Origin: Candidatus Poribacteria bacterium
Lineage (GTDB): Bacteria; Poribacteria; WGA-4E; WGA-3G
NCBI GenBank assembly: GCA_028820845.1
Contig: JAPPII010000049.1
Location: forward strand, 1-32,176
DNA: 32,176 bases
Direction of reading: 5' to 3'
Under the pieces are notes generated by a model that worked only from the letters and a program-made list of their open reading frames with translations, was not told where the DNA came from and made no database searches. This document shows, one piece after another, positions 4,999 through 24,851 of the stretch; the first letter of the stretch is position 1; each line of letters opens with the position of its first letter. The translations under genes and the position numbers were made by a program.

Positions 4999-7050
4999 AT
5001 GCACTACACATCACAGCAAAATGACTGGCTGGTTCACCCCTTCCGTCAGTCTGCTTCAGTAGAGGAAGCGGACAATCGACTTATTCTCAATAATGGACTT
5101 ATTCGCCGAACATTCGTCACTTCACCTAATTTCACAACAGTTGATTATACCAATCAGATTACCGGTATCAGTCTTCTTCGGGGCATCAAACCAGAGGCGG
5201 TCCTTACGATTGACGGACGCGAATTTGAGGTAGCCGGCTTGAAAGGACAACCCGATTACGCCTATCTTGATTCGGATTGGATTGCGGACTTGGGCAGTGA
5301 CGAGAACGCATTTCAATTTCGCGAGTATCGAATCAGTAAACCTGAAATCCGCTATCCGTGGGTCCGCAGGCGTTCTACGGCACCATCCGTCTATCCACCA
5401 GAGGGCGTAACACTGACGGTTGCGTTTTCATCGCCCCCATCTGTTGACTCCCTTCAGGTTTGCGTACATTATGAATTATATCAAGGCATTCCAGTCTTGT
5501 CCAAATGGATCACTATTCGTAATGAGGGGCAACAACCGATTCAATTGGATGGCTTAAGCTGTGAAATCCTTGCTGTCAATGAGCAGGAGAAGCATCGGTT
5601 ACATGTCGAGAGTGATTATGCCTTCAGTGGAATGGAAACGACACACTGGGGACCGGATGCGGATTACAAGACACAGGTTGATTACCATTATCAGATGCCA
5701 CTCTTGATGACAAGTCGCTATCCACTCGGTCCGGGGGTATCTCTGCAACCGGGAGAAACTTTCAGGAGTTTTCGCACCTTCGAGATTCTGCACGATAGTG
5801 ACGATCGTGAACGAAAAGGACTCGCACGTCGTAAGATGTATCGCGCACTGGCACCACAGGTCACGGAGAATCCGATTCTCATGCACGTTCGGAGTGCCGA
5901 ACCGAACGCGGTACGTTTGGCGATAGATCAGTGTGCCGAAGTCGGATTTGAAATGGTGATTATGACCTTTGGGAGTGGATTCAATATTGAAAGCGAAGAC
6001 CCAGAATACATTACCACAATGAAAGGATTAACCGACTATGCACACAGCAAAGGGATTCAACTCGGTGGTTATACCCTGATGTGTGCTTCGCGGAATGCGG
6101 GTGAAGACTTCAACTGTATTGATCCAGACACAGGGCAGCCCGGAAGTCGGTTTGGACAGAGTGCGTGTCTTGCCAGTGGATGGGCAGACGGCTATTCCCA
6201 GCGAGTGCTGAATTTCATAGACGCAACCGGAATGGATGTCATAGAGACTGATGGTCCCTATCATGGTGATGTTTGTGCTGCAAAGACGCACGAACATCAT
6301 GACAGTTTAGCAGATTCACAGTTGCGCCAGTGGGAAGCGTGTGTACATTTTTACCATGAATGCCGAAAACGCGGTATCTATATCAATTCACCAGATTGGT
6401 ATTACCTCAACGGTTCAAACAAATGCGGTATGGGCTATCGCGAGACGAATTTCAGCTTACCTCGCGAGCGGCAAATTCTAATTGCCCGGCAGAATATCTA
6501 CGATGGAACTTATGAAAAGACACCGAGTATGGGTTGGATGTTCGTCCCCTTGGTGGAGTATCATGGCGGCGGGGCAGCCGCGACATTTGAGCCCCTTTGT
6601 GATCATCTTGATGATTATGAATCGCATTTAGCACAGAACTTCGGCAGTGGCGTGATGGCGTGCTATCGCGGTCCCCGGCTTTTTGACACTGAACAGACCA
6701 AGGTTGTCGTTAAGAAGTGGGTTGACTTCTATAAACAGTATCGTCTAATATTGGATTCTGACCTGATTCACGTACGCCGTCCAGATGGATGCTCCATTGA
6801 TTGTATGCTTCACGTTAATCCGCTGATCACACCTTGTGGACTCGCGATGCTCTATAATCCTACACGGACGGTGAAACAGATCACTTTGAAATTACCCGTC
6901 TATTATACTGGATTATCTGAAGTTGCCGAGATTCGCCAAGAAGAAGGAGCACCTAAACGGTACAAAATTGACCGGAATTACAACGTTGAGATCCCAATTG
7001 AGATGGAAGCAAAAAGCGTTAGTTATCTTATTATTGAATCTGGAGTATGA
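4999..7050 (+). CDS. GH36/clan GH-D-like alpha-galactosidase-type glycoside hydrolase
   Basis: The 683-residue protein has the three-part layout of clan GH-D enzymes. An N-terminal beta-supersandwich covers about residues 1-280 (LILNNGLIRRTF, VHYELYQGIPVLSKWITIRN). A TIM barrel covers about 290-590 (ILMHVRSAEPNAVRLAIDQC, GFEMVIMTFGSGFN, KGIQLGGYTLMC). A C-terminal beta domain follows (LAMLYNPTRTVKQITLKLPV). The segment GMDVIETDGPYHGDVC contains D418 at the place where the family nucleophile ends a barrel strand, but this is a positional guess. No signal peptide is present, unlike its neighbours, so it is predicted cytoplasmic. The ATG follows AGGGG at 7 nt. It probably removes terminal alpha-linked sugars from glycans. 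Exact substrate and family are unproven. Confidence 0.65.
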   Translation: MHYTSQQNDWLVHPFRQSASVEEADNRLILNNGLIRRTFVTSPNFTTVDYTNQITGISLLRGIKPEAVLTIDGREFEVAGLKGQPDYAYLDSDWIADLGSDENAFQFREYRISKPEIRYPWVRRRSTAPSVYPPEGVTLTVAFSSPPSVDSLQVCVHYELYQGIPVLSKWITIRNEGQQPIQLDGLSCEILAVNEQEKHRLHVESDYAFSGMETTHWGPDADYKTQVDYHYQMPLLMTSRYPLGPGVSLQPGETFRSFRTFEILHDSDDRERKGLARRKMYRALAPQVTENPILMHVRSAEPNAVRLAIDQCAEVGFEMVIMTFGSGFNIESEDPEYITTMKGLTDYAHSKGIQLGGYTLMCASRNAGEDFNCIDPDTGQPGSRFGQSACLASGWADGYSQRVLNFIDATGMDVIETDGPYHGDVCAAKTHEHHDSLADSQLRQWEACVHFYHECRKRGIYINSPDWYYLNGSNKCGMGYRETNFSLPRERQILIARQNIYDGTYEKTPSMGWMFVPLVEYHGGGAAATFEPLCDHLDDYESHLAQNFGSGVMACYRGPRLFDTEQTKVVVKKWVDFYKQYRLILDSDLIHVRRPDGCSIDCMLHVNPLITPCGLAMLYNPTRTVKQITLKLPVYYTGLSEVAEIRQEEGAPKRYKIDRNYNVEIPIEMEAKSVSYLIIESGV

Positions 7051-13786: not shown

Positions 13787-14353
13787 TCAGCGACGATAGA
13801 TGCTGACTTCCATGCCGTCCCGTCTACCCGGCCGTCGCCGGCTTTCAAACCAGTGTGTTTCAGAGTCGTAATGAGAACGGACATGCTCCAAATAGGCTGC
13901 CATCGGCTCTGGTCTACCGACGTTATCAGCGACAAGTGTTGCGGGATTGGTTAATCGAGATTCAATGGCTTGAAAACAAGCGAAATACCCGTCTTTGTTG
14001 TTATCAAGAAACAGGAAATCGACAGGTTCTTGGATGGTTTCGAGGACTTCTGCAGCGTCGCCGATACGGGAGTCCACAATATCTGCTACGCCTGCTTTCT
14101 CAAAATGTGCGCGTGCCCGCTGGGCATTGACATCCTCTATTTCCACTGTTATCAAACGTCCCGCGCCTAATGATTTTAACACACGTAACATCCAAAGTCC
14201 AGAATAACCGATGGCAGTCCCACACTCTACAATCAGGGACGGTTTTGCGTTTTCAACACAACTGGCGAGCAATTTCGCCTTGTCGGGTCCTAACATGGGG
14301 ACACGTTCCGCCCGACACTGTTCCTCAACCTCTTTGATGATTTGGTCTAACAT
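13787..14353 (-). CDS. class I SAM-dependent O-methyltransferase (family 3 type)
   Basis: The 188-residue protein has the Rossmann-type methyltransferase motifs in order. Motif I is LIVECGTAIGYSGLWML, which binds the SAM carboxypropyl and adenosyl moiety. The acidic end of strand 2 is LITVEIED. Then come GDAAEVLETIQEPVDFLFLD with NNKD following, and TLVADNVGRP. These match small bacterial O-methyltransferases of the catechol/caffeoyl-CoA type (PF01596-like), in which the Asp and Asn residues after strands 4 and 5 bind metal. No signal peptide, so it is cytoplasmic. Its ATG shares one base with the TAA stop of the DUF3500 gene (TAATG), implying translational coupling. Substrate unknown. A catechol or small phenolic is possible from the family but unsupported by neighbours. 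Confidence 0.8.
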   Translation of the reverse strand: MLDQIIKEVEEQCRAERVPMLGPDKAKLLASCVENAKPSLIVECGTAIGYSGLWMLRVLKSLGAGRLITVEIEDVNAQRARAHFEKAGVADIVDSRIGDAAEVLETIQEPVDFLFLDNNKDGYFACFQAIESRLTNPATLVADNVGRPEPMAAYLEHVRSHYDSETHWFESRRRPGRRDGMEVSIYRR

Positions 14354-15597
14354 TAGTGGGTCTCCCTATTTTCTATGTTTTTCAGATTGGCGATACTGTA
14401 GTCGAACAGCTTGTCACTCGTTTTGTGATGGTCTTCAAGGGCATAATGTTCCAAGAGTGTCTTGGGACCGTGATTCAAGGCAAAAATGCCGTAGTCTTTT
14501 CCGTTCGGCGATCGGGTTATAGAATGGATGTGATCTAAACCGTCACCACGAGATCCACCGTCCCGTCCGTCTCTACCGCCGCGCCCGCGTCTTGTGCCGA
14601 CACCGCCTTCGTTATTGAATTCAATCCAGACAGCGGGGTTAAAAACGCGGTAGTAAATCGGATCGTTGATAGTCGTGCCGCCGATCCAGACGAAATAGGT
14701 ATCGTCGAGTCCGGCATCAACATCCGTCATCCAGACATCCGCAAACTCGGTTTCAAGGTTGTAGACGTACGTTTTAATCAGGTTCCGTAGGTTCTGTTTC
14801 TGGGTATCATTCATCTCTGAAGCCTTCAGACCAACACCGACGAAATCGGAATAGTCGTAATTCAGGAAAGTATCTGTAGATCTACCGGGACCGACTTGGA
14901 GTCTACGGCGACCCGTTTGAATGGCTTTCTCTCGCTGGCTTGCGTTGAAGCTGTGCATTAACGCGAAGGCGTTGGTTCTTTCGCCATCAAGTACGACAGT
15001 TCCGTTGACAGTTGCCGGTTCCGTTCCGATGAAGGCAGGGACAATCGAGACTTCATCACCATGCACCAAAAAGTTGAGTGCCAAATGGTGTCCATCCAAC
15101 TGAAACCCCCAAGATCCGTCTGTCTCTGGGTTACCGAATAGTGCGATGTGATAGCGATTTGGGTCCCACATCCCAGGTCTGATTTTATTGAGATACGTTT
15201 CAACATCTTTTGTAATGAGAGAAACTTTGGTATAACCGTCGTCACTTAGGAATGCATCTAAAACGTAATAGAAAAGCGTTAGTTGATCTACGGACAACTC
15301 ACCGAAACGGATGCCGCCGCGATCGCTGTTTCTACCCGGTGGTGTATTCGTCCACGAATAAGATTCTTTATGTCCGAGCGGGAAGGAAGCTGCGTCAAGA
15401 AGTTCGCTGCTCAGCGATGCGCGAAAACTTTTCATGGCGTTCGCCAAAGCCACAATTGAGGGTTTTGTAGAGATTTCGGCGATCTCTGCTGTCTTTTCTG
15501 CTATATCTTCTGCAACCTCTCTATCACCGTGTCCAAAGCAGAATGATATGGCTAATAATAGTATTCCGAGTATGATGCTCGGAATCCGAAACTTCAT
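14353..15597 (-). CDS. secreted DUF3500 protein
   Basis: The 414-residue protein has a signal peptide (IPSIILGILLLAISFCFG) and a good ribosome binding site (AAAGGAGAA about 10 nt before ATG). It matches the DUF3500 family through GSWGFQLDGHHLALNFLVHG (about residues 163-182) and the C-terminal HIHSITRSPNGKDYGIFAL. Several conserved histidines could bind metal or haem, but the family's function is not established. Between the last two conserved blocks is a low-complexity Arg/Gly/Asp stretch (TRRGRGGRDGRDGGSRGDG). The gene heads an operon with the methyltransferase (1-nt overlap), DUF5916 and Kelch genes. Role unknown. Confidence 0.8.
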   Translation of the reverse strand: MKFRIPSIILGILLLAISFCFGHGDREVAEDIAEKTAEIAEISTKPSIVALANAMKSFRASLSSELLDAASFPLGHKESYSWTNTPPGRNSDRGGIRFGELSVDQLTLFYYVLDAFLSDDGYTKVSLITKDVETYLNKIRPGMWDPNRYHIALFGNPETDGSWGFQLDGHHLALNFLVHGDEVSIVPAFIGTEPATVNGTVVLDGERTNAFALMHSFNASQREKAIQTGRRRLQVGPGRSTDTFLNYDYSDFVGVGLKASEMNDTQKQNLRNLIKTYVYNLETEFADVWMTDVDAGLDDTYFVWIGGTTINDPIYYRVFNPAVWIEFNNEGGVGTRRGRGGRDGRDGGSRGDGLDHIHSITRSPNGKDYGIFALNHGPKTLLEHYALEDHHKTSDKLFDYSIANLKNIENRETH

Positions 15598-15621
15598 CAG
15601 ATATATTCTCCTTTCTTAAGG

Positions 15622-15716
15622 GTTGTTAGTTATCGGTTATTGGTTATCGGTTAGCGGCAGCTCTGTGCAATTAGAGTGGTCTTTCACTGACAGCTGAGGA
15701 CTGACCACTGATAACC
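15622..15716. repeat. heptad-repeat inverted element, copy 1
   Basis: From 15622, four to five consecutive 7-mers of the form GTTATCG (GTTATCG, GTTATTG, GTTATCG, GTTAGCG from 15629) are followed by about 30 nt of spacer. Then come four 7-mers of inverse type (ACTGACA, GCTGAGG, ACTGACC, ACTGATA from 15686). The right block read on the other strand begins GGTTATCAGT, so the ends are inverted relatives. The element fills the gap between the DUF3500 start and the chorismate-lyase-like stop codon, which it touches within 2 nt. A second copy lies at 20626-20746. Confidence 0.7.
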
Positions 15717-15717
15717 A

Positions 15718-16323
15718 TCACAGTGGGAACTTCTCGTTAATCAGCATGATCGGTTCTTGATTCGCGAACATCCGATAGGCACGACTGATAAACGTCTCGC
15801 CTTCGAGGTGTGCGACAGCGGACGGTAAATCCATTAAGGTCTCGATACCGCACCAGAGCAGCTCACGCCGGGTCTCTAAACCACTGCCCCGCAAAAGTCC
15901 ACCCAATCCCTGTTTGTCGGTTGTTAACCCATCTAAAAGGGATTGCGGGAGACGATGCGGGGCAATGAGTGAAGTTGCGTAAGTGTGAATTATCGGAGAT
16001 GATTTGTCTTGTGAGTAGGTTTGGAGGACGACTTGGCGTGAAATAATCTCTACTCCAGCGGGTAGTTGAAGCCAAGAGTGTTCGGTAGTGAGTCTCTGTT
16101 TCGTCTGTTGTAGTAGCACGACCTCCACCGGTGTGAGTGTATAGGCTTCGATAAACCGCGTAACTGTCCCGTCCATAACGAGGAGTCCGCGTTGGAATGC
16201 GGAAAGTCGTGCGAGGTTGATTTCTTTTAGGTTTTCGGGTTTGGCATTTTGTGCAACGAAGAGTGATTTCATGCGTGTGTTAACGCAGGTTCTCCGTCGC
16301 TTGTTGATTGTATCTATTTTCAT
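15718..16323 (-). CDS. chorismate lyase/DUF98-like protein
   Basis: Residues after the start region match the chorismate pyruvate-lyase-like family (DUF98): LSAFQRGLLVMDGTVTRFIEAYTL with EVVLLQQ after it, ISRQVVLQTY, YATSLIAPHRLPQSLLDGL, GLGGLLRGSGLETRREL, and the end ISRAYRMFANQEPIMLINEKF. The final ISR...Y..F.....P.M.I.E.F pattern is the most diagnostic. Chorismate lyases release pyruvate from chorismate to give 4-hydroxybenzoate, but many family members have no proven activity. The start is uncertain: ATG at 16374, 16323 or 16272 all lack a convincing ribosome binding site. 16323 is a compromise giving 201 residues. No signal peptide. The gene stands alone between the heptad element and a divergent promoter. 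No quinone-pathway partner is seen nearby. Confidence 0.7.
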   Translation of the reverse strand: MKIDTINKRRRTCVNTRMKSLFVAQNAKPENLKEINLARLSAFQRGLLVMDGTVTRFIEAYTLTPVEVVLLQQTKQRLTTEHSWLQLPAGVEIISRQVVLQTYSQDKSSPIIHTYATSLIAPHRLPQSLLDGLTTDKQGLGGLLRGSGLETRRELLWCGIETLMDLPSAVAHLEGETFISRAYRMFANQEPIMLINEKFPL

Positions 16324-16453
16324 GATGGGAAATTTCCGTTCTTTAGAAAAGATATGTTTAATTAAAAGCGACATACAATTTAAATTGATTTATGAAATTA
16401 GACATATAGATTTGAAAAAGGTTCGTTTCTGAGAACATAAAGACGAATTCGGC

Positions 16454-19531: not shown

Positions 19532-19566
19532 TACAGCACGTCAACTAATTGAGAGAGGAGATAAAA

Positions 19567-20622
19567 ATGGCAATAGGATTGGGCGTTATTGGGATGAATC
19601 CGACGAATATGGGTTCAACGGCGACACTTTTAAAGGATGTACCGGACCTGAAATATGAACTCCGCGGTATCTGTGCAAAGCGGGCAGATGTTTTGGAAAA
19701 CTATGCAAAGCAGATTGGTGTGGATTTTTGGACGACGGATTACCGGGAACTGGTGCAACGCGAGGATATTTCTGTTATCGCAATCTATTCTCCTGACCAC
19801 TTGCATGCTGAACACTGTGTCGCGGCGATTGAAGCTGGGAAACATATCATTTGTACGAAACCGATGGTGACCACATTAGCCGATGCGCAACAGTTGGTAG
19901 ATCTGGTACGCGAACACAAAGTCAAATTCCTCGTTGGGCAAACGATGCGGTTTGATCTCCAGTTTTTGACAATGAAACGGTTCTTTGACGATGGCGATTT
20001 AGGCGACATCATGATGGCGGATGCCTATTATGTTCACGACATGCGCGAGGTCTATGCGTTTACACCGTGGCGGCTCCATGAACCTCAAGATTTGATGTTC
20101 GGCGGTGTTGTGCATCCTGTTGACATATTGCGCTGTCTTCTCGGTGATGTAGATGAGGTACATGCCTACGGCACTAAAGGTCTACTCACGCCGGAATACC
20201 CGATAAAGAACAATTTCTTTCTTAACCTGAAATTTAAGAGCGGGCAGATTGCGAGAGCGATGGGGCTTTACGATATCGTCCATCCTCCGATGCCGATGAT
20301 GCAGCTCTCCGTTTTCGGAAGTAAAGGAACAATAATTGGGGACTTTACGGACAACGAAGAAGGACACGTTAAGTTGATGCTCGATAAAATGTCCACCGGA
20401 GAGCCCTTTGAAGTGACATGTCCACCGGAGACAGATACAAGTGTTTATGGACACGGACAAACAGTGATCCGATATATGCGGCATTTTCAGCAGTGTCTGG
20501 AGGAAGATTTAGAACCCTCGCCGAATGTGATTGATGGTGCGAAGTCTATCGCCGTCGGTGCAGCAGCGTGGGAATCCATTGAGACGGGGAAACCTGTGAA
20601 GGTGTTCAACGAATTTGTGTAG
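19567..20622 (+). CDS. Gfo/Idh/MocA-family oxidoreductase
   Basis: ATG 19567 follows GAGGAGATAAAA; an upstream TTG in frame is ignored. The 351-residue protein has an N-terminal NAD(P)-binding Rossmann domain and a C-terminal alpha/beta domain of the GFO_IDH_MocA type. Landmarks are ISVIAIYSPDHLHAEHCVAA and EAGKHIICTKPMVTTLADAQ with the conserved catalytic Lys. Then come KVKFLVGQTMRFDLQFLTMK and GGVVHPVDILRCLLG with the active-site region His-Asp. The dinucleotide loop GVIGMNPTNMGS departs from the usual GxGxxG, and the common EKP motif reads TKP. Family members oxidise or reduce sugars, inositols and amino-sugars. Substrate cannot be read from sequence. No signal peptide; cytoplasmic. It is monocistronic and divergent from the TRAP gene. 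Confidence 0.85.
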   Translation: MAIGLGVIGMNPTNMGSTATLLKDVPDLKYELRGICAKRADVLENYAKQIGVDFWTTDYRELVQREDISVIAIYSPDHLHAEHCVAAIEAGKHIICTKPMVTTLADAQQLVDLVREHKVKFLVGQTMRFDLQFLTMKRFFDDGDLGDIMMADAYYVHDMREVYAFTPWRLHEPQDLMFGGVVHPVDILRCLLGDVDEVHAYGTKGLLTPEYPIKNNFFLNLKFKSGQIARAMGLYDIVHPPMPMMQLSVFGSKGTIIGDFTDNEEGHVKLMLDKMSTGEPFEVTCPPETDTSVYGHGQTVIRYMRHFQQCLEEDLEPSPNVIDGAKSIAVGAAAWESIETGKPVKVFNEFV

Positions 20623-20625
20623 AGG

Positions 20626-20746
20626 GTTATCAGTTATCGGTTATCGGTTAGGAGGCTATCCCTAACAGTCCACGACTTCTTGGCGGATGCCAAGTTGGGG
20701 AAGATTGTTACGAATGACTGTTAACTGACGACTGACAACTGATAAC
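20626..20746. repeat. heptad-repeat inverted element, copy 2
   Basis: Four tandem 7-mers (GTTATCA, GTTATCG, GTTATCG, GTTAGGA, 20626-20653) are followed by a 63-nt core. The core contains a perfect hairpin, CTTGGC (20679-20684) with GCCAAG (20689-20694). Four 7-mers of inverse type close the element (ACTGTTA, ACTGACG, ACTGACA, ACTGATA, 20717-20744). On the opposite strand the right end reads GTTATCAGTTGTCAG, so both ends begin GTTATCAGTT. It fills the space between two convergent genes almost exactly, starting 4 nt after one stop codon and ending 8 nt before the other. Same design as 15622-15716. Confidence 0.75.
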
Positions 20747-20753
20747 TATTTTG

Positions 20754-23700
20754 CTATTTCAGGATTAGCATTTTCCGTAATGCGAATGTCTCGTTTGTTC
20801 GTAACTGGTAAAAATAGATACCGCTTGCGACACGCTCACCTAAAGCGTTCCGACCGTCCCAATACGCAGCACTGTTCCGCTCGGTGTAGTAGCCCTCGGG
20901 CTGATATCCAAGTGCCAGTTGCCGGATAAGCGTCCCCTTTGCGTCGTAAATGAGAATCTGCACATCCGTACCAGTCGCTAACTGGTATGGAATCCATGTT
21001 TCGGGGTTGAACGGATTTGGATAATTCGCGAGGAGTCGTGTTTCCTGTGGTGTTGCTGATGCTAAAAGACTTTGGAGAAACGCAAGCACCTTTTGGTATT
21101 TCAGTGAACCGTCATCTTCCAACTGTAAGCTGCGAATTTCTGCTTGAATCAGAGCACGGTCAACGGCTGTTAATTTGCCACCAATCTCTGGTGCCGCAGG
21201 ATTCACAGCGTCGTCGAGATCCGATATTACAACAATCAGGTCTGCAGCATTAACAGTGCCATCTCCGTTGACATCGACACGTGAGTTGACGGGTGTGTTT
21301 TGTCCCAAGGCTGCTGCCACTAACATCAAGTCTGTGTTGTTAACTTTGCCATCGGCGTTTATGTCCGAAGCAGAACGGGTTGCTGAAGTGCCCACAAATG
21401 TTTGTGATGTGCCGAGGGCGATACCAGCAGCTTCGCCAGATCCGGTGAAGATTTCTTGGACATTCGATCCGTCAAGATTCGCTCGCTGGATGCTGCTTTT
21501 GGTGATGCTCCCTGTAACAGGGTTCCATACCTGATCCGTCCAGTAAATCTTGCGTCTTGCTGTGTCTAAAACTATGTTTGACGGTCCCGCTAATCCGGTG
21601 ACGAGGGTCTCAACATTGGATCCGTTAAGGTTCGCTCGCGAGATTTGTTTCTCCTCGTAGTCAGCCCAGTACATTTTACCACCTGCAGTATCCAAGGCGA
21701 TATCGCTTGGCGTGTGCGTGCCGTTGACAAGGTCTTCGACGTTTGAACCGTTGAGGTTGGCGCGTTGGATAGTCCCCACTTCTGCGTCTGTCCAGTACAC
21801 CTTGCCCATGGAGGTGTCGAGGGCGATACCCTCTACAGTTCCCAATCCTGTGACGATGTCCTGTACATTTGAACCGTTGAGGTTGGCGCGTTGGACTTTA
21901 CTTTCCGTAATGGCACCTGTGAAGCGATCCCAGCCTTGGTCCGTCCAATAAATTTTGCCTTTAACCAAGTCCAGAGCAATTGACAACGGGCCCGTCAATC
22001 CTGTGATAAGGTCTTGAACGTTTGAACCGTTAAGATTTGCGCGTCGGATTTTACCTGTGTCGGTTTCTGTCCAATAAACCTGACCTCTCGTTAAATCCAG
22101 AGCGATTGCCGATGAATCTGGCACATTGGTGATGATGTCTTCAACGTTCAAGTTATTAATATTGACGCGTCGGATTGCGGATGCCTGTTTATCTGCCCAA
22201 TAGATTGCTGGACTTCCAACAGCCGTCCCCGTCGGGGTGTATATGAGTTCGGGCAATGCTACCGTGCTGAAGCCTTCAGGTGTTCCCAACCCAGTGATAA
22301 CAGATTCTGCATTTGACCCATTGAGATCTGCGCGTTGCACTTTTCCATTGGAATTCGTCCAGTAGAGTTTACGCGCCCCAAAGTCAACAGCGATGCCGAG
22401 AGGAACTGATGTGTTTATTGTAACAAGTCTCTCAACGTTTGATCCATTGGGGTTAGCGCGTCGAATTCTTCCGCTATTTACATTTATGGTTACGTTCAGC
22501 ATTTCTGTCCAGTAGACCTTGCCACCGGCAATAGCGATGCCTGTGAGGGTGCCAGATCCTTTGGCGATATTTTGTGGGTTTGAACCGTTAAGGTTCGCTC
22601 GCTTGAGGTTCGCTCCATCCGACCAGTAGATTCTGCTATTTTCTGTATCTATAGTAATATTGTCTGGCGAATTTGAGCCGGTGATGAAATTCGGTTGGAA
22701 GTTTGAACCGTCTAAATTGAGGCGTTGTATTTTACCCCAAGTATTCGTCACATAAATCTTGCCTTTTGTGGTGTCAATCGCAATACTTTTGACGATACTC
22801 GTTAATCGCTTAACGACTTCAATGTTTGAACCGTCCATATTGGCACGTTGGATCTTCCCCCGCGTGTTGCTAATCTTTTCTGTCCAATAGATTTTACCAT
22901 TCGCTGTATCCACAAAAATACTGGTGGCGTTTTGGACAGTTGGGAAAATCTGCTCTACTCTGTTTTCCGTCAAACGATGGAGTGTGCCTGTCCTGGCATT
23001 TACCCAAAACATTGGTGGACGTTCCGACACATCAATAAGAACGGTTGGAGATGGCGGCAGGTGTTCTGCTCCAGGAGTGCCATAATTGGGTGGGTTGAAG
23101 TTCACACGTCCACTTGATGCGTGCCAATTGTCTGGCAGTCTGCCATCAGAAATTCTGCCTATTGCGTAATTAATTACACGGTACATGGAGACGAGCGGAC
23201 GATTTTGTGAAGTGTTGCCGCTTTGACCAGGCGGATTCCAGTCTTTACGGTTGGTGGTCGTCCTGATGTTGCTCATCTGATCAATAACCTTTACCTGTCT
23301 GTTAGCGTCATAGGAAGGGGTAAACACTGTATTCGGTAATGGGTTGGCGGAGGTGTCGGAAAAACGGAGATTTAAACTACCATTGGCGAAAGTGTAGGTC
23401 CGTTTTGAAGCGTTGTAAAGTTCAATCCACTGTTTATTCGTGGAAGTGCCATCAAGGCCCCACATGATTTCAGAGATGATCAGATCACCAAATGCTGGTT
23501 GATTTGCACCGGAAGGTAACGGGTTTTGATTGGTATCTGTAATTAGTTCAATCCGTCCGCCATTTTGGAAAAAGTGTGTCAGGTTTGGAAAATCAGCATT
23601 TGTGGCATTTTGATCGACCGAGTAATATGAAAGGTAGGTTTTGAAATCGCCAGTTTCATTTACACCTGACTGACGCGTCCGTGCTAAAAGTACGAATTCG

Positions 23701-24851
23701 CCTGGGCGGATGACGAAATTATTAGGATTTAAACCAGAAGGTTTCTCGACAGCGATCGTAATCCCTGTCGTATCCACAAATTGGTGAAATTCAATATCTA
23801 TTGTTACATCTGGATTCAGTTGGCGTAGCGTGCGGAGCGGCATTAGATCGCTGATTGAATTTCCCGATACCCATAGGACTTCGAGATTTTCCAAGTTTGA
23901 GAGTGGTGCCGCGTCCGTGATTTGGTTCGTATTGAGATAGAGTCTCCTGAGGCGCGTTAAATCCTCGAGGGCAGTAATATCACGAATTTCGTTAGCACTG
24001 AGATTGAGGTGTGTTATTTCAGTCAATTCTGTGAGGGGTGTTACATCTTGAATCTGATTTCCTGAAATCTCTAATCTGATGAGCTGCTTTAATCCTGTGA
24101 GGACTGCGATATTGCTAATTTGATTCTCTGACAAGTTTAAGTATGTTATCTGCGTCAGATCCGCGAGGGGTGTGAGATCCGAGATTTGGTTTCCAAAGAG
24201 GTCTAACCTCCTGATTCCTTCTGAGTTACTGATATGTGCAATGTCGGTAATCTGATTCTCTGATAGATTCAGAGAGAATATTTGTGTCAGCCCCGCGAGG
24301 GGTGTGAGATCCGAGATTTGATTTCCCGATAGTTCTAATCTTATAATGCCTTTCAATTCTGTGAGGGGGGTGATGTCCCTGATACCATTGTTCAGGAGAT
24401 TTAAATCTGTTATTTGTATCAATTCCGTGAGCGGCGCAATATCGACAATCTGGTTGGAACCGAGGTTTAACCGGGTCAAGTTTACCAATGTCTCAAGCAC
24501 TGTGATATCTTGGATACGATTAGAATTGAGACGCAACTCTGTTAGGTGCGTTAGTCCTTCAAGGAGAGTGATGGTTGTAATTTCATTAGCACTAAGATTT
24601 AGAACTTCTAACTGGGTTGCGTGTTCTAATCCTTTAATGTCCGTTATTTCGCTGTTTTCAGCATTTAAGATGGTTAATGCTTGCATCGCCTGCTGTGTGA
24701 GCGAACCGTTTGCCTCTATGTTAAGGGCTTGACGCACTGCCGTTCTTAAATTTTCGTCCGGCATCCATTCTGTCTCATTTTGCGCCGAGGCGATGTTAAG
24801 GCAACAACTGAGAGCAGTGATCACAACAAAGAGCCTGTAAAAACCTTTCAT
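20754..24851 (-). CDS. giant secreted LRR / lamin-tail / YWTD-propeller / dockerin / FlgD-like surface protein
   Basis: A 1365-residue exported protein with a signal peptide at residues 1-23 (FVVITALSCCLNIASAQ). Domains in order: thirteen 22-residue leucine-rich repeats at about 59-345 (consensus LxxLNLSxNQIxDITPLxxL, internalin-like); a lamin-tail-like segment at about 452-500 (DLIISEIMWG, KQWIELYNAS); and about twelve LDL-receptor-type YWTD units at 612-1150 (GKIYWTE, RANLNGSNV). Two dockerin-type calcium loops follow at about 1163-1215 (DINADGKVNNTDL, DVNGDGTVNAADL). The end at 1270-1365 is a FlgD-like domain beginning NYPNPFNPETWIPYQLA and ending ASGIYFYQLRTNETFALRKM. That end resembles C-terminal sorting or attachment domains of exported proteins. 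AAAGGA lies upstream of the ATG. It is likely displayed on the cell surface for adhesion or host/particle contact, inferred from domains only. Confidence 0.9.
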   Translation of the reverse strand: MKGFYRLFVVITALSCCLNIASAQNETEWMPDENLRTAVRQALNIEANGSLTQQAMQALTILNAENSEITDIKGLEHATQLEVLNLSANEITTITLLEGLTHLTELRLNSNRIQDITVLETLVNLTRLNLGSNQIVDIAPLTELIQITDLNLLNNGIRDITPLTELKGIIRLELSGNQISDLTPLAGLTQIFSLNLSENQITDIAHISNSEGIRRLDLFGNQISDLTPLADLTQITYLNLSENQISNIAVLTGLKQLIRLEISGNQIQDVTPLTELTEITHLNLSANEIRDITALEDLTRLRRLYLNTNQITDAAPLSNLENLEVLWVSGNSISDLMPLRTLRQLNPDVTIDIEFHQFVDTTGITIAVEKPSGLNPNNFVIRPGEFVLLARTRQSGVNETGDFKTYLSYYSVDQNATNADFPNLTHFFQNGGRIELITDTNQNPLPSGANQPAFGDLIISEIMWGLDGTSTNKQWIELYNASKRTYTFANGSLNLRFSDTSANPLPNTVFTPSYDANRQVKVIDQMSNIRTTTNRKDWNPPGQSGNTSQNRPLVSMYRVINYAIGRISDGRLPDNWHASSGRVNFNPPNYGTPGAEHLPPSPTVLIDVSERPPMFWVNARTGTLHRLTENRVEQIFPTVQNATSIFVDTANGKIYWTEKISNTRGKIQRANMDGSNIEVVKRLTSIVKSIAIDTTKGKIYVTNTWGKIQRLNLDGSNFQPNFITGSNSPDNITIDTENSRIYWSDGANLKRANLNGSNPQNIAKGSGTLTGIAIAGGKVYWTEMLNVTINVNSGRIRRANPNGSNVERLVTINTSVPLGIAVDFGARKLYWTNSNGKVQRADLNGSNAESVITGLGTPEGFSTVALPELIYTPTGTAVGSPAIYWADKQASAIRRVNINNLNVEDIITNVPDSSAIALDLTRGQVYWTETDTGKIRRANLNGSNVQDLITGLTGPLSIALDLVKGKIYWTDQGWDRFTGAITESKVQRANLNGSNVQDIVTGLGTVEGIALDTSMGKVYWTDAEVGTIQRANLNGSNVEDLVNGTHTPSDIALDTAGGKMYWADYEEKQISRANLNGSNVETLVTGLAGPSNIVLDTARRKIYWTDQVWNPVTGSITKSSIQRANLDGSNVQEIFTGSGEAAGIALGTSQTFVGTSATRSASDINADGKVNNTDLMLVAAALGQNTPVNSRVDVNGDGTVNAADLIVVISDLDDAVNPAAPEIGGKLTAVDRALIQAEIRSLQLEDDGSLKYQKVLAFLQSLLASATPQETRLLANYPNPFNPETWIPYQLATGTDVQILIYDAKGTLIRQLALGYQPEGYYTERNSAAYWDGRNALGERVASGIYFYQLRTNETFALRKMLILK
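21402..23018 (-). repeat. coding tandem repeats of the YWTD propeller
   Basis: About twelve units of roughly 40-48 codons encode D...GKIYWTD...I.RANLNGSNV. The DNA segment around tttgaaccgtt(a/g)aggtt recurs almost unchanged in several units, which indicates expansion by duplication or recombination. Confidence 0.8.
23817..24677 (-). repeat. coding tandem repeats (13 leucine-rich repeats, 66-nt period)
   Basis: Thirteen repeats of exactly 22 codons, each with L..L.LS.N.I.DI..L. The constant 66-nt spacing looks array-like at DNA level but is coding. Confidence 0.85.

Follow-up and report, generated by a model that had tools for sequence, protein, structure and literature searches.

Facing tandem-heptamer hairpins at gene ends in a genus of Poribacteria: a probable family of MITE-like elements that replace intergenic spacers

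Based on genus-wide copy number, a core that can be aligned across non-orthologous loci and the presence or absence of copies at orthologous sites, we propose that a repeat found twice in the analysed window (the whole 32,176-nt stretch of Candidatus Poribacteria DNA) belongs to a class of dispersed, non-autonomous, MITE-like hairpin elements, with slippage and hairpin templating driving the turnover of their arms. We give this reading a probability of about two in three; the same three lines of evidence support the original prediction of a small non-autonomous mobile element. Each element is a long hairpin made up of tandem-heptamer arms that face each other (GTTATCR / GTTRTCA), an AGAG...CTCTTAAC step and a palindromic core.

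Architecture and spread of the elements

Copy 2 spans positions 20625-20750 of the window and copy 1 positions 15616-15720. The arrangement originally described from the sequence, namely tandem GTTATCR-type heptamers facing ACTGAYN-type heptamers with four or so units per array, was recovered at both loci, as was a perfect hairpin within the longer core. The relevant features are given below; the scored arm intervals of both copies take in a few bases of step or flank.

14353-15597, - strand: DUF3500 gene flanking copy 1, with its start codon 18 nt from the element and a Shine-Dalgarno motif between
15616-15657, + strand: left heptamer arm of copy 1 (GTTGTTA GTTATCG GTTATTG GTTATCG GTTA), the interval also taking in a few flank and step bases
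15658-15685, + strand: short core of copy 1, outside subfamily A and without a match to covariance model R1
15686-15720, - strand: right heptamer arm of copy 1, beginning TGATGGTTATCAGT on the - strand
15718-16374, - strand: chorismate-lyase-like gene flanking copy 1, with its stop codon overlapping the element
19549-20622, + strand: Gfo/Idh/MocA oxidoreductase gene flanking copy 2, with its TAG stop 2 nt from the element
20625-20650, + strand: left heptamer arm of copy 2 (GTTATCA GTTATCG GTTATCG GTTA)
20651-20709, + strand: palindromic core of copy 2, subfamily A, matched by covariance model R1 and aligned with 42 other elements
20679-20694, + strand: perfect inner hairpin of copy 2, CTTGGC-GGAT-GCCAAG
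20710-20750 (start approximate), - strand: right heptamer arm of copy 2, reading GTTATCA GTTGTCA GTCGTCA GTTAACA on the - strand
20754-24851, - strand: LRR/dockerin repeat-protein gene flanking copy 2, with its stop 3 nt from the element

The tight abutment against stop codons that had been noted for both copies holds on either side of copy 2, which lies between two stops at distances of 2 and 3 nt. At copy 1 it holds on one side only, where the TGA inside TGATGGTTATCAGT is the stop codon of the gene at 15718-16374 (overlap at 15718-15720), and the other side lies upstream of a start codon. The R1 match in copy 2 (20638-20738, 97.8 bits, the model having been built from 13 sequences that include copy 2) makes it a good member of the core A subfamily; no Rfam family was matched within the window. 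Folded as RNA, the entire copy 2 forms a single hairpin (-53.4 kcal/mol, z -7.9) and the + strand of copy 1 likewise forms one (-40.4 kcal/mol, z -4.9), with no shuffled sequence equally stable in either case. The 1365-aa protein encoded at 20754-24851 combines LRR repeats, LDL-receptor class B repeats, a dockerin domain and a FlgD/secretion-type C-terminus. The best public match is the MAG Candidatus Poribacteria SB0670_bin_34, which has a 100% identical counterpart of the gene before copy 2 on a contig that aligns with 12.8 kb of the window at 99.76% identity.

The consensus of the family can be written as [TT]AATAGTTATCAGTTATCAGTTAAGAG - core - CTCTTAACTGATAACTGATAACTATT[AA], with the ends consisting of tandem heptamer arrays of variable unit number. 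The elements have terminal inverted repeats, lack coding capacity and occur in many copies. A keyword sort of 100 distinct elements, in which some members of the A and B bins are misplaced, assigned 40 to core A, 19 to core B (TTTGTGGCA...TGCCACA) and 41 to other cores, and the combination of shared ends with different cores, previously noted for the two copies of the window, is general in the family. Core A, aligned over 43 loci in many genomes, reads CTGTAACAATTCACCACTTCCTGGAGTACTCCAAGTTTGGG.AGATTGTTACA and represents about 65 nt of specific sequence present at dozens of non-orthologous loci. A small nested hairpin, TTCAGTACGATTTTTTCTGCGAAAAAATCGTACTGAA, was seen in or beside heptamer elements at three places in the relative G005 (L140 2486-2554, L143 10388-10586 and L148 1447-1616).

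The family is clearly not limited to the two copies of the window, either in this genome or in related ones, and extends through a genus of Poribacteria associated with sponges. Allowing up to two mismatches, GTTATCRGTTATCRGTTA has 159 matches in this genome versus 26 for the reversed pattern, and the abundance of the arm pattern is far beyond chance. At one mismatch the pattern occurs in all 38 genus genomes searched, with 9-190 matches per strand against 0-5 for controls, while other genera of the same family have 0-14 matches and the remaining phylum almost none. The core A covariance model likewise recovers from 10 to at least 67 matches (both strands counted) in each of the 36 genus genomes searched and none in 23 of the 24 genomes searched outside the genus. 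This distribution indicates that the family is dispersed, and there is good support for its elements being dispersed copies that descend from common ancestors. The sole carrier among the 24 non-genus genomes, G035 from another family of the order, has two core A matches, which may reflect transfer or contamination.

The arms are strongly oriented, with 44 facing pairs versus 2, 2 and 2 for the other arrangements, counted over about 0.79 Mb of this genome's own sequence picked around matches and a contiguous 0.4 Mb block of G005. These counts come from a strict arm scan, a looser one having been dropped for its many chance matches. Roughly two dozen paired elements lie in the contiguous block, a density that would correspond to a few hundred in each genome; because this genome was read only in part, around known matches, such totals are extrapolated and the figure of hundreds of elements per genome is a rough estimate.

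Placement at gene ends and replacement of spacers

Among 55 classified elements, 45 are located in tandem, five in convergent and five in divergent gene spacers, with 11 further elements overlapping a predicted frame. Among 54 tandem pairs, some of which are mutual orthologs, the left end falls between -10 and +5 nt from the upstream stop codon 32 times, against 4.3 expected from random placement in control spacers (2,000 simulations, maximum 15). Frequently the upstream stop codon is itself within the element end, in the form TAA TAGTT, TGA TGGTT or TAG TTATC, and the downstream end often lies 2-20 nt before the start codon. Many elements fill the spacer from the stop codon almost to the next start codon; over the tandem pairs the median residual spacer is 24 nt, as opposed to 94 nt in controls. 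A Shine-Dalgarno motif was found at 4 of 20 starts situated no more than 12 nt from an element, compared with 225 of 367 controls (Fisher p 0.0003), or at 4 of 16 when five orthologous sites are collapsed (p 0.007), a scarcity that is only suggestive because the gene starts are machine-called. By virtue of the stop codons carried in its ends (TAA TAG TT, TGA TGG TT, TAG TTATC), a copy arriving at a gene end would close the reading frame, and we propose that copies persist at such positions because their own stop codons would continue to do so.

A search for empty and occupied orthologous sites, as envisaged in the original prediction, uncovered both kinds. Immediately before a VIT-family gene, five genomes carry orthologous core A elements of 128-144 nt, whereas in more than 20 other genomes the spacer is mostly 55-77 nt long, contains a short GC hairpin and in most cases also has a Shine-Dalgarno motif. 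No recognisable trace of this empty-type spacer was detected in the occupied genomes, in which the upstream gene is a few codons shorter; an occupied and an empty locus (L246 and L233) have flanks that are 93% and 90% identical. The site orthologous to copy 2 has a GC-rich hairpin instead of the element in three genomes (G022, G002 and G041), and that of copy 1 holds a recognisably similar element in G012 and G009 (L060, L064). The elements replace the spacer rather than simply adding to it. Directly before the element, the occupied VIT sites display a GGAGG-like string (GTAAAGGAG, GTGGAGGAG), which we conjecture to be a displaced Shine-Dalgarno motif that the hairpin would bring beside the start codon.

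Other repeats were observed in comparable spacers. In the spacer between the Gfo and LRR genes, L165 and L285 (G045) have three tandem copies of GTAGGAGGGAACTCCGATTCCCGACC instead of the element. A second palindromic repeat, CCGGTAGGTGCGGTTTCCTAACCGCACCGG, and its relatives occur downstream of the Gfo gene in L240 and L249 and near position 10500 of L110, and a third, TGTAGCACAAACTTTTAGTTTGTGTC, is present in spacers of several genomes, including L103 near position 5400 and, downstream of the Gfo gene, L234, L262 and L266.

Turnover, mobility and competing explanations

Several comparisons bear on how the arms and cores change. Between G017 and G008 there is a difference of 14 nt, which equals two units, in elements whose flanks are 97-98% identical. 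Across elements, the type of heptamer unit is linked between the left and the right arm at positions 2 and 6 (z 4.6 and 3.7; overall p 0.002), with a correlation at position 2 of r 0.68 and no such link at positions 4 and 7; these linked arm types are consistent with mutual correction of the arms or with a common origin of both. At the copy 2 site, the G012 core has direct and inverted scores of 23 and 44 against this genome and of 40 and 56 against G023, while G023 and this genome compare at 62 direct and 40 inverted. The core thus appears to be inverted in G012, the contrast being moderate because the core is itself palindromic, and possibly its reversed core reflects an independent insertion in the opposite orientation. 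In two genomes of the same species all eight elements compared, starting from those found in one of the two, are present in both, one with a 15-nt length difference; current movement is accordingly unproven and may be slow.

Folding energies of 54 tandem elements favor the sense strand in 22 and the antisense strand in 31 (p 0.44). This lack of strand bias argues against selection for a sense-strand RNA hairpin and fits a DNA-level structure, which the hairpin probably is, although roles in expression remain compatible with it. An influence on how strongly the downstream gene is expressed is in our view putative and secondary. In our preferred scenario the element would act as DNA which, when single-stranded, for instance at replication, folds into one hairpin; slippage would add or remove units while one arm templates the correction of the other, keeping the 7-nt phase, and these two processes would explain both the linked arm types and the flipped core. 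As to the mode of spread, we infer either a transposase acting in trans or template switching combined with ectopic recombination, the two being about equally likely.

The searches for moving machinery and its footprints gave negative results within their scope. No target-site duplication was detected in 54 elements: direct repeats spanning the ends, which are placed to a precision of a few bases, are at their longest no longer than in shuffled flanks (14% of shuffles reach as high). Neither a transposase-bearing version nor a lone gene-carrying half-element was found in 2.37 Mb searched with core A halves, which returned only weak, degraded copies. Two candidate partners were set aside: XisH (PF08814) is absent from this genome and present in only 4 of 36 genus genomes searched, a mismatched distribution, and PD-(D/E)XK_2 likewise shows no matching pattern.

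These observations need to be weighed against three other explanations. Neutral slippage, by which heptamer arrays would form in place within AT-rich spacers and turn palindromic through template switching without any movement, accords with the gain and loss of arm units and with the 15-nt difference seen within a species. Local slippage cannot, however, be the source of a core of about 65 nt common to dozens of non-orthologous loci across 36 of 36 genus genomes searched, and this explanation, which we consider improbable overall, is largely refuted by the core A alignment, while being possible for short-core elements. The REP/REPIN-like unit of the original prediction, moved by a REP-associated tyrosine transposase (RAYT), fares worse still and is in our estimation the least probable of the three. 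The elements do resemble REPINs as hairpin-forming inverted doublets of high copy number and mostly intergenic position, and 29 of the 30 genus genomes searched have Y1 transposases; yet in none of 50 Y1 stretches (RAYT and IS200 types unsorted) is the gene enclosed between arms, and most are armless, and the arms are tandem heptamer arrays rather than short palindromes. Two arms that do surround a Y1 gene on contig C25 are separated by about 4.4 kb that holds several unrelated genes and were judged to be a chance occurrence.

A host regulatory element is an unlikely but more serious contender. It would account for the location of 45 of 55 elements between tandem genes, with the downstream end often 2-20 nt from a start codon, and for the low frequency of Shine-Dalgarno motifs near elements (4 of 20 versus 225 of 367 in controls), which recalls the approximately 10% of repeat-bearing spacers that hold such a motif in a Beggiatoaceae genome (PMC4679880). 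Against it, placement is patchy among close relatives, the same type of element also occurs between convergent stop codons, as at copy 2, and the RNA fold has no sense-strand advantage. The MITE-like reading has its own difficulty, in that replacement of a whole spacer is unlike the insertion of typical transposons.

Relation to known repeats and implications

Read on the other strand, the heptamer is TAACTGA (GTTATCAGTTA becoming TAACTGATAAC), a unit for which direct repeats have been reported from Beggiatoaceae, cyanobacteria and a few Bacteroidetes in a paper that makes no mention of Poribacteria (MacGregor 2015, PMC4679880). The two sets of repeats share the heptamer, a mainly intergenic location near start codons, the rarity of Shine-Dalgarno motifs, a patchy spread and length steps of 7 nt. 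They differ in that facing pairs dominate in Poribacteria, whereas the BOGUAY genome has 169 direct TAACTGA sets and one inverted (PMC4679880), and in the palindromic cores, core subfamilies and spacer replacement. The XisH/XisI company noted for some TAACTGA carriers does not extend to XisH in the Poribacteria genus. When the consensus element was compared with 72,556 plasmid records, only five matches emerged, all cyanobacterial (Nostoc, Planktothrix, Fischerella) and via the arms alone. Two Nostoc plasmids (L356, L357) have facing arms much like those of Poribacteria, with an arm of L357 ending at a stop codon, which indicates that the paired form is not confined to Poribacteria; the other three have one-direction arrays or a weak partner, and the cores are unmatched.

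Among better-known elements, MITEs and REPINs (PMC3116915) are comparable in being short, non-coding, hairpin-forming, mostly intergenic and of high copy number with inverted ends, but the Poribacteria elements depart from them in their tandem-heptamer ends, in replacing the spacer and in that a matching transposase and target duplication were not found. With MITEs in particular they share terminal inverted repeats, the lack of coding capacity and many copies, though not a target-site duplication; with REPINs they share an inverted doublet able to form a hairpin, though neither short non-repetitive palindromic ends nor, in the 50 Y1 stretches, a RAYT (Y1) gene flanked by copies. The P6b stem of the trnL intron in lichen-symbiotic Nostoc also has 7-nt repeats on both sides, with units gained or lost and the repeat class swapped (PMC4476775), but it occupies a single fixed place within a self-splicing intron and uses other heptamers.

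TAACTGA-type heptamer arrays are already known, and what is new are paired, core-bearing, MITE-like hairpins that take over spacers. More tentatively, and with rather low confidence, these might constitute a new hairpin class that replaces whole spacers from stop to start, brings its own stop codons and displaces the Shine-Dalgarno motif, so that translation signals are rewired for many genes across the genus, with related elements in cyanobacteria. The replacement of spacers seen here is a case that needs a mechanism. The findings extend the TAACTGA heptamer family to a further phylum and give it structure: the arms are paired, the core can be aligned and the position at gene ends is strict. 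Together, this structure and placement make the question raised in 2015, whether such repeats are regulatory or mobile and by what route they reached unrelated phyla, testable by comparative data.
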